Shown in pieces: positions 47,544 to 48,742 of a stretch of 64,000 nt of DNA (positions within the stretch are counted from its first letter, which is position 1; each line of letters starts with the position of its first letter). A model generated the notes under the pieces. It was not told where the DNA came from, did no database searches, and saw only the letters and a list, made by a program, of their open reading frames with translations. The stretch is from the NCBI RefSeq assembly GCF_004134905.2, contig NZ_SDPQ02000001.1:62001-126000 (forward strand), read 5' to 3'. Source of the DNA: Aeromicrobium ginsengisoli (GTDB lineage Bacteria; Actinomycetota; Actinomycetes; Propionibacteriales; Nocardioidaceae). The position numbers and the translations under genes were made by a program.

Positions 47544-48575
47544 ATGACCACGATCACCGCAGCCGTCGCCGGCGCCAGCGGATACGTCGGCGGCGAGGTC
47601 CTGCGTACACTGCTCGCGCACCCCAACGTCGAGATCGGCGCCCTGACCGCCGCGTCGAGCGCCGGCAGCACGTTGGGGGAGCACCAGCCCCATCTGGTGC
47701 CGCTCGCCGACCGCGTGCTCGAGCCGACGACGGCTGAGGTGCTGGCCGGGCACGACGTCGTGTTCCTCGGCCTGCCGCACGGTACGTCCGCGGCGATCGC
47801 CGCCCAGCTCGGCGACGACACCCTCGTCATTGACTGCGGTGCTGACTTCCGCCTGCAGAGCGCCGACGACTGGGAGACGTTCTACGGCGGCGATCACGCC
47901 GGCACCTGGCCCTATGGCCTGCCGGAGCTGCCCGGTCAGCGCGACGTGCTCGCCGGTGCCAAGCGGATCGCCGTGCCGGGCTGCTTCCCGACCGCCTCGA
48001 CGCTCACGATCATGCCGGCGCTCGCCGCAGGCCTGATCGCGCCCGACATCACGGTCGTCGCGCCCACGGGCGCCTCGGGCGCAGGCAAGTCGCTCAAGCC
48101 GCACCTGCTGGGCTCGGAGATGATGGGCCAGGCCAGCGCATACGGCGTGGGTGGCGTGCACCGCCACACCCCCGAGATCGAGCAGAACCTCGAGCTCGTC
48201 TCCGGCACCCGCCCGACGGTCTCGTTCACGCCGATCCTGGCGCCGATGTCCCGCGGCATCCTCGCGACGGTGTCCGCGCCGGCGCTCGACGGGGTCACCG
48301 CTGAAGACGTGCGCGCCGCGTACGTCAAGGCGTACGCCGACGAGCCGTTCATCCACGTGCTGCCCGAGGGCCTCTGGCCACAGACCAAGGCCGTGCTGGG
48401 GGCCAACATGCTGCACGTGCAGGCGACGCTCGATCCGCGTGCCCGCAAGGTCATCGCGATCGGCGCGATGGACAACCTCGCCAAGGGCACGGCCGGCGGC
48501 GCGATCCAGTCGATGAACATCGCGCTGGGCCTGCCCGAGACGACGGGCCTCACCACGATCGGGGTTGCACCATGA
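47544..48575 (+). CDS. argC: N-acetyl-gamma-glutamyl-phosphate reductase
   Basis: NADPH-dependent step 3 of arginine synthesis. The 343-residue enzyme has the Rossmann start [26 protein letters not shown], the active-site cysteine in [10 protein letters not shown] and the substrate segment [25 protein letters not shown] is the RBS. Its stop lies in ATGAGC, which is also the left border of relay element B. Confidence 0.96.
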
Positions 48576-48742
48576 GCGTTCCCCTGAGGGACGGATCTTC
48601 ATGCGTTCATGTCGTCAGGACGACGCGAACGCAGGGACATCGGTCGTCTGCCTCGACCGTTCGTACGGATCTTCATGCGTTCGTGTCACCAGGACAGCGC
48701 AAACGCATGAAGTTGCGTCCCACCAAGGGAGCCCCTGCATGA
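48572..48742 (+). repeat. ATGA-relay element B (MIRU-like), with a 56-codon ORF, between argC and argJ
   Basis: The argC stop is in ATGAGC (48572) and the argJ start in ATGAGC (48739), exactly 167 bp apart as in element A, with CATGAGCGT (9 bp) at both ends. Two palindromic units lie at about 48591-48648 and 48665-48724. The second has perfect 11-bp arms CTTCATGCGTT (48671-48681) and AACGCATGAAG (48702-48712). The 56-codon ORF stops in the argJ ATGA. It shares DGSS, RTDL-AF and RMK patches with the ORF of element A. GGGAG before 48739 serves argJ. Confidence 0.8.

Follow-up and report, generated by a model that had tools for sequence, protein, structure and literature searches.

The argC/argJ junction

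The window, a stretch of 64 000 nucleotides from Aeromicrobium ginsengisoli, carries argC and argJ on the forward strand, joined by an insert that contains an open reading frame of its own and whose two ends overlap the neighbouring genes. The features of the junction are as follows.

47544–48575, + strand: argC, with its stop TGA inside the ATGA at 48572–48575 (ORF list; tblastn against the argC regions of relatives)
48571–48579, + strand: left target copy CATGAGCGT, holding the argC stop and the start of the mini-ORF
48572–48742, + strand: insert-made mini-ORF of 56 codons, with an ATGA overlap at both ends
48588–48647, + strand: palindrome 1 of a doublet (model R1)
48662–48721, + strand: palindrome 2 of the doublet (model R1), 74 bp downstream of palindrome 1
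48725–48731, + strand: SD-like AAGGGAG inside the insert, 7 nt ahead of the argJ ATG (read from the sequence; group SD-strength test)
48738–48746, + strand: right target copy CATGAGCGT, holding the argJ start
48739–49890, + strand: argJ (ORF list; homologue alignments)

The distance from the ATGA of argC (48572) to the ATG of argJ (48739) is 167 bp, and the frame that starts at 48572 remains open throughout (MSVPLRDG...TKGAPA, followed by a stop), its terminal TGA overlapping the argJ ATG; the length, the in-frame ORF of 56 codons and the 9 bp flanking repeat had all been described in the original prediction, and each was recovered here. An ATGA at each end of the insert, where relatives display a bare overlap, and an internal ORF linked to both neighbours are traits of a MIRU-type insert. 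The closest named relatives of argJ belong to Aeromicrobium, in a comparison from which records very near the window genome may be missing.

A second copy occupies the carB/pyrF junction, where ATG 15294 and ATG 15461 are also 167 bp apart and the intervening frame is open.

15294–15464, + strand: carB/pyrF mini-ORF of 56 codons, with palindromes at approximately 15309–15368 and 15384–15442; the overlap is bare in the nearest relative

Insertion relative to related genomes

The nearest relative of the window genome, G019 (carB 100% identical over the last 250 residues, pyrF 98–99%), displays a plain carB/pyrF overlap. Its junction reads CGAGGCGCGGGC-ATGAGC-TTCGG, and the window has the identical left flank followed by the insert and a second ATGAGC. 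The carB/pyrF overlap is likewise bare in G022, as is the argC/argJ overlap in G022 and in G041. Within the genus, the loci covered represent 30 of the 44 pyrF-bearing genomes and 30 of the 47 that carry argJ, and the bare overlap is retained in 18/30 of the former and 14/30 of the latter. Apart from inserts of 14–250 bp, the remaining loci comprise five at carB/pyrF with d of 3–6, three at argC/argJ with d of 3–4 and one argC/argJ locus lacking a readable junction. Among named actinobacterial genomes, the −4 overlap at argC/argJ is found in 33 of 80 argJ loci.

Since relatives carry bare ATGA overlaps at both junctions, the 167 bp stretch is best read as an insertion that duplicated ATGA-containing DNA. 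In both copies of the window, the duplicated target is no longer than 9 bp (CATGAGCGT at argC/argJ and GGCATGAGC at the other), with ATGAGC common to the two. The bare sites of G019 and G022 could in principle represent precise losses instead. Sequence comparison nevertheless establishes the insertion relative to these relatives, the membership of a family, the duplication of the target and the frame rule described below.

Comparison of the two 167 bp copies

Aligned without gaps, the two copies are identical at 109 of 167 positions (65.3%), close to the value of about 65% given by the earlier hand count; the maximum was 67 in 10 000 shuffles, a comparison that had been named in advance as a possible refutation, and 75 in 5000 random genomic pairs. 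The shared positions sit in the target copy (7/8) and in the palindromes (92/132), and the likeness resides in these two tandem palindromes, of approximately 59 nt each. The outer ends show no clear likeness (2/10 identical on the left and 8/17 on the right), so the equal length of 167 bp does not reflect plain end-to-end homology. A search of the window genome, in which the window itself is C1:62001–126000, yielded five copies, at argC/argJ, carB/pyrF, C2:508154, C1:898806 and C1:899890, the last two of which flank a single gene.

The identical length and the gapless alignment would be accounted for by a single complete 167 bp unit that moved to both junctions with no nesting, a reading that we regard as unlikely in view of the dissimilar outer ends and of the other ends carried by doublets elsewhere. 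On the other hand, the argC/argJ inserts of G019 (89 bp) and G047 (56 bp) lack the palindromes and have ends (..GAGCCTTCCCC..., ...GGGGGCCCCGGC) that by eye are loosely similar to those of the window copy, and at L243:1483–1602 a unit of the 83 bp family described below contains a different palindromic piece (33 bp) with the frame kept. These cases suggest that each window copy probably began as a short coupling insert and gained the doublet afterwards; nesting in separate short inserts would explain why the outer ends differ. If the unit is composite, the equal length would be partly a coincidence under a rule that confines lengths to 2 mod 3.

Distribution of the palindromes

Matches to model R1 were found in 20 of the 49 genus genomes (E ≤ 0.01). 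Together with the bare overlaps in relatives and the duplicated target DNA, this bears out the proposal of a mobile family, and by comparative evidence the element is real and mobile. Among 31 palindrome places, drawn from the best-scoring hits and not at random, three lie at DTGA...DTGA junctions, by a strict test that may miss some, while 12 flank a gene and many are intergenic. One further place, L252 in G008, has a doublet at an 8 bp gene overlap (ATGACTGA) with a 12 bp repeat and an open frame, and its spacing of 172 is 1 mod 3, as an 8 bp overlap demands. A location mostly at stop–start overlaps, another trait of MIRU-type elements, is thus not displayed by the palindrome family (3/31 places). 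The claim that the family targets ATGA junctions is not supported, since the proposed tabulation of sites returned the very outcome named in advance as counting against it: among the places examined, palindrome copies lie mostly away from stop–start overlaps.

Target repeats of at least 8 bp border five of 22 palindrome doublets (23%), compared with 8.5% of 200 cross pairs, and no such repeat was found at the other 17. Four of the five are at gene overlaps, the fifth being L249. At this last locus (L249:1468–1652) a 13 bp direct repeat, CCGGACGTCACCG, surrounds a doublet situated away from a DTGA junction.

An 80/83 bp family at stop–start overlaps

A unit of 80/83 bp, unrelated to the palindrome family, first came to light in two named genomes (argC/argJ) and in G041 and G036 (carB/pyrF). 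It matches 38 of the 49 genus genomes (E ≤ 0.01) and, in a family-wide sample, 43 of 197 genomes and four of 26 genera; outside the genus, long matches occur in G062 only and matches of about 26 nt in three genomes. Copies are often in tandem. A likely member lies in the window.

23560–23643, + strand: likely 80/83 bp member, MTERQRGHIGALVPSAPYRWLFLEATA followed by a stop, d = 80, between two coding frames (assigned by eye)

Of 21 copies inspected initially, 14 were bordered by coding frames on both sides (hand count), the remainder being tandem neighbours, copies before a gene with no upstream partner, or decayed. A larger set comprises 55 rows from 48 loci, after removal of two among 50 as duplicates; DTGA stands at both ends in 51 rows, 49 of which are 2 mod 3. 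A coding frame adjoins these 51 copies upstream in 35 cases, downstream in 44 and on both sides in 29, whereas among 33 control pairs of DTGA with an 83 bp spacing, three are bordered by coding frames on both sides. The model was derived from six copies at junctions, and an end was moved to a DTGA if one lay no more than 9 nt away, both of which favour a DTGA-junction outcome. The preference for DTGA sites, which does not hold for the palindromes, thus stands largely for this separate family.

Such a preference, and the ATGAGC duplicated in both operon copies of the window genome, would be expected of a transposon that recognizes ATGA or DTGA as its target, in which case insertion chemistry and not selection would set the position. 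For the argC/argJ insert this seems improbable, given the small share of palindrome places at DTGA junctions.

Frame rule and alternative functions of the insert

A 56-codon open frame occurs in 17% of composition-matched shuffles and is unremarkable by itself; the weight of the frame argument is borne by the set of inserts across relatives. All 19 genus inserts of 14–250 bp are 2 mod 3 and open (7/7 at carB/pyrF and 12/12 at argC/argJ), bounded at each end by ATGA or GTGA, with lengths of 20–167 bp and several unlike sequences, most of them devoid of the palindromes of the 167 bp copies. The geometry of coupling is kept, as had been predicted, and appears to be under constraint. Among named genomes, the rule is followed by nine of 12 inserts in the same length range, the exceptions being inserts of 130 and 166 bp at two loci of Actinopolymorpha and one at a Nocardioides locus, where the stop is TAG and DTGA is absent. 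The named and the genus sets overlap in some genomes, and some inserts are common by descent, so that independent events are fewer than rows.

Larger gaps, of more than 250 bp, separate argC and argJ in 27 of 80 loci of named genomes; these loci (among L048–L104) belong mostly to Nocardioides and its relatives, with gaps of 403–604 bp. L038, with a truncated argC, is outside the count; its insert measures 32 bp by eye and is 2 mod 3. The 104 bp argC/argJ insert of L192, which is likewise 2 mod 3 and is open, terminates with a copy of the part of argC that encodes the C-terminus.

The window itself was scanned for pairs of DTGA separating coding frames, and four junctions emerged (15294, 23560, 33340 and 48572), all 2 mod 3; two extra rows are alternative in-frame downstream starts at two of these. 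The junction not yet described is the following.

33340–33369: 9-codon mini-ORF, MTERSEAIA followed by a stop, d = 26, with ATGA overlaps joining two coding frames

The downstream frame is open back across the insert at 23560, 33340 and 48572, where upstream starts may exist, and is closed at 15294. In the group comparison, SD pairing ahead of the downstream start was stronger at inserted junctions (−9.2 kcal/mol, n = 31) than at bare ones (−6.4 kcal/mol, n = 65; p = 1e-4), with some genomes entering twice and the rows being related.

The palindromes could instead act as an RNA or DNA regulator (a hairpin BIME, a terminator or an internal promoter), with the open frame incidental. Indeed, the five copies of the window genome are predicted to fold very stably, at approximately −71 to −109 kcal/mol, and the many intergenic places would suit such a role. 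However, the frame rule is obeyed by all 19 genus inserts, most of which have no such palindromes, and neither terminator-like sites (a hairpin followed by a T run) nor sigma-70-like promoter sites were found at the argC/argJ or carB/pyrF junctions; a search of six loci likewise gave no Rfam match at E up to 0.5. This explanation is very improbable.

Nor is the mini-ORF at all likely to encode a leader peptide or to be a genuine small gene with a functional product. A start, a stop and an SD sequence are in place, and a peptide of the form MSERQRANHEAA.. recurs in the 80/83 bp family, but the peptides of inserts at the same junction are mostly unrelated to each other, and in 25 copies of the 83 bp family the codon-position entropies (0.83, 0.85 and 0.72) display no third-position excess and hence no indication that the peptide is selected. 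Translation of argJ as a longer protein through the insert, for which the frame open from TTG 48565 (ORF 48565–49890) might be invoked, is very improbable, as homologues align from ATG 48739 (query residue 1), an SD-like site precedes this codon and the pyrF frame is closed back through its own insert.

Proposed mechanism

Coupling of genes through ATGA overlaps is well established. We consider it likely that the argC/argJ insert is a MIRU-type coupling insert in an ancestral argC–argJ ATGA overlap, carrying a nested palindrome doublet. A mobile element would have entered the ancestral stop–start overlap and duplicated its DNA, thereby preserving both the argC stop and the argJ start. Because of the geometry of the junction and the established behaviour of ATGA overlaps, we infer that ribosomes finishing argC would reinitiate on the mini-ORF, read through the hairpins, terminate where the second ATGA lies and then begin anew on argJ, aided by the SD-like AAGGGAG supplied by the insert; the peptide would be a by-product. 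The frame rule would arise chiefly from the loss of inserts that break coupling. The unit itself would be composite, a short MIRU-type coupling insert in which a REP-like palindrome doublet was nested later. Two biosynthetic junctions, each represented in about 30 genomes, constitute a natural experiment in which varied inserts preserve the −4 coupling, and selection on translational coupling becomes measurable from such inserts.

A gene flanked by the palindromes

In five genomes, members of one gene family are surrounded by palindromes or doublets in pairs approximately 1 kb apart, six such pairs in all. At L011:1021–2013 an AbiEi/DUF559-like gene has palindrome doublets on both sides, and its frame extends into the right-hand doublet. 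Relatives of the flanked gene occur in 29 of the 49 genus genomes (E ≤ 1e-20) and in 129 of 197 family genomes. Among 30 gene loci, R1 gave 52 matches at E ≤ 1, confined to 12 loci, and all but one of these overlap the gene end or sit within about 260 bp of it; the other 18 loci gave none. More generally, the left flank of a gene is similar to its right flank, with a mean score of 46.7, against 21.9 for cross pairs and 18.9 for far flanks, and the score exceeds the 95th percentile of cross pairs (36.8) in 21/30 genus loci and in 2/5 loci outside the genus. Hairpin energy by itself did not discriminate gene-flanking palindromes, the far control being surpassed by both flanks in 13/30 loci, where 10 were expected (hand count).

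The flanked gene is present in 17/20 genomes with palindromes and in 12/29 without (Fisher p = 0.003, from hand counts with no correction for kinship or genome completeness); three genomes have palindromes and lack the gene, and G019 and G022, the closest relatives of the window genome, have neither. Pfam matches among 16 members are weak, with AbiEi_4 in 6/16 (best E 0.0017) and DUF559 in 4/16 (best E 0.00018); in a first scan of five proteins, AbiEi_4 was below its cut-off in two. The 16 members gave no NCBIfam match, and a PDB profile search of the family at E up to 1 returned nothing. The DUF559-like C-terminus is presumably of nuclease type.

It is possible, and we propose it tentatively, that the doublets are non-autonomous copies mobilized by this protein, with its AbiEi-like N-terminus and DUF559-like, probably nuclease-type C-terminus, in a manner resembling REP–RAYT systems with a different enzyme, and that they settle between operon genes only when coupling is kept.

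Comparison with known systems

No report of these Aeromicrobium repeats was found among the matches listed in the open-access literature. MIRUs use DTGA targets and are not known to have dyad symmetry. In one account, a MIRU is a repeat located at start codons with an internal ORF coupled to the gene at −4 spacing (PMC12548453), and another describes 53 and 77 bp units in senX3–regX3 and reports an internal promoter for that spacer (PMC4213456). The argC/argJ insert resembles these in behaviour, as a short, mobile-looking repeat with a coupled ORF. The 80/83 bp family comes closer and may be regarded as a DTGA-bound analogue of MIRUs, its behaviour closely matching that given for MIRUs in PMC12548453. 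On the other hand, the Aeromicrobium inserts occur in another host family and have other peptides and lengths, and the 167 bp copies hold palindrome doublets. MIRU-type elements would thus extend to another actinobacterial family.

REP palindromes are associated with the RAYT transposase (PMC2817692). As in REP, BIME and REPIN–RAYT systems, the Aeromicrobium palindromes are short, arranged in doublets, dispersed and in part gene-flanking; the two flanks of a gene tend to be alike while differing from gene to gene, although hairpin energy does not set such flanks apart. The enzyme differs: Y1_Tnp (PF01797) was found in none of the 49 genus genomes and in 5/14 control genomes, and the flanked gene is weakly AbiEi/DUF559-like. 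The parallel with RAYT concerns arrangement, mobilization by the flanked protein being putative, and this protein may be palindrome-associated in a way not seen before.

With MITEs, the palindromes share their small size, dispersal, inverted repeats and, at some sites, target duplication, but each copy consists of two tandem palindromes and not of one terminal-repeat pair. Rickettsia palindromic elements are likewise mobile palindromes kept in frame; they are located within genes, whereas the Aeromicrobium insert lies between genes and forms a separate mini-ORF.
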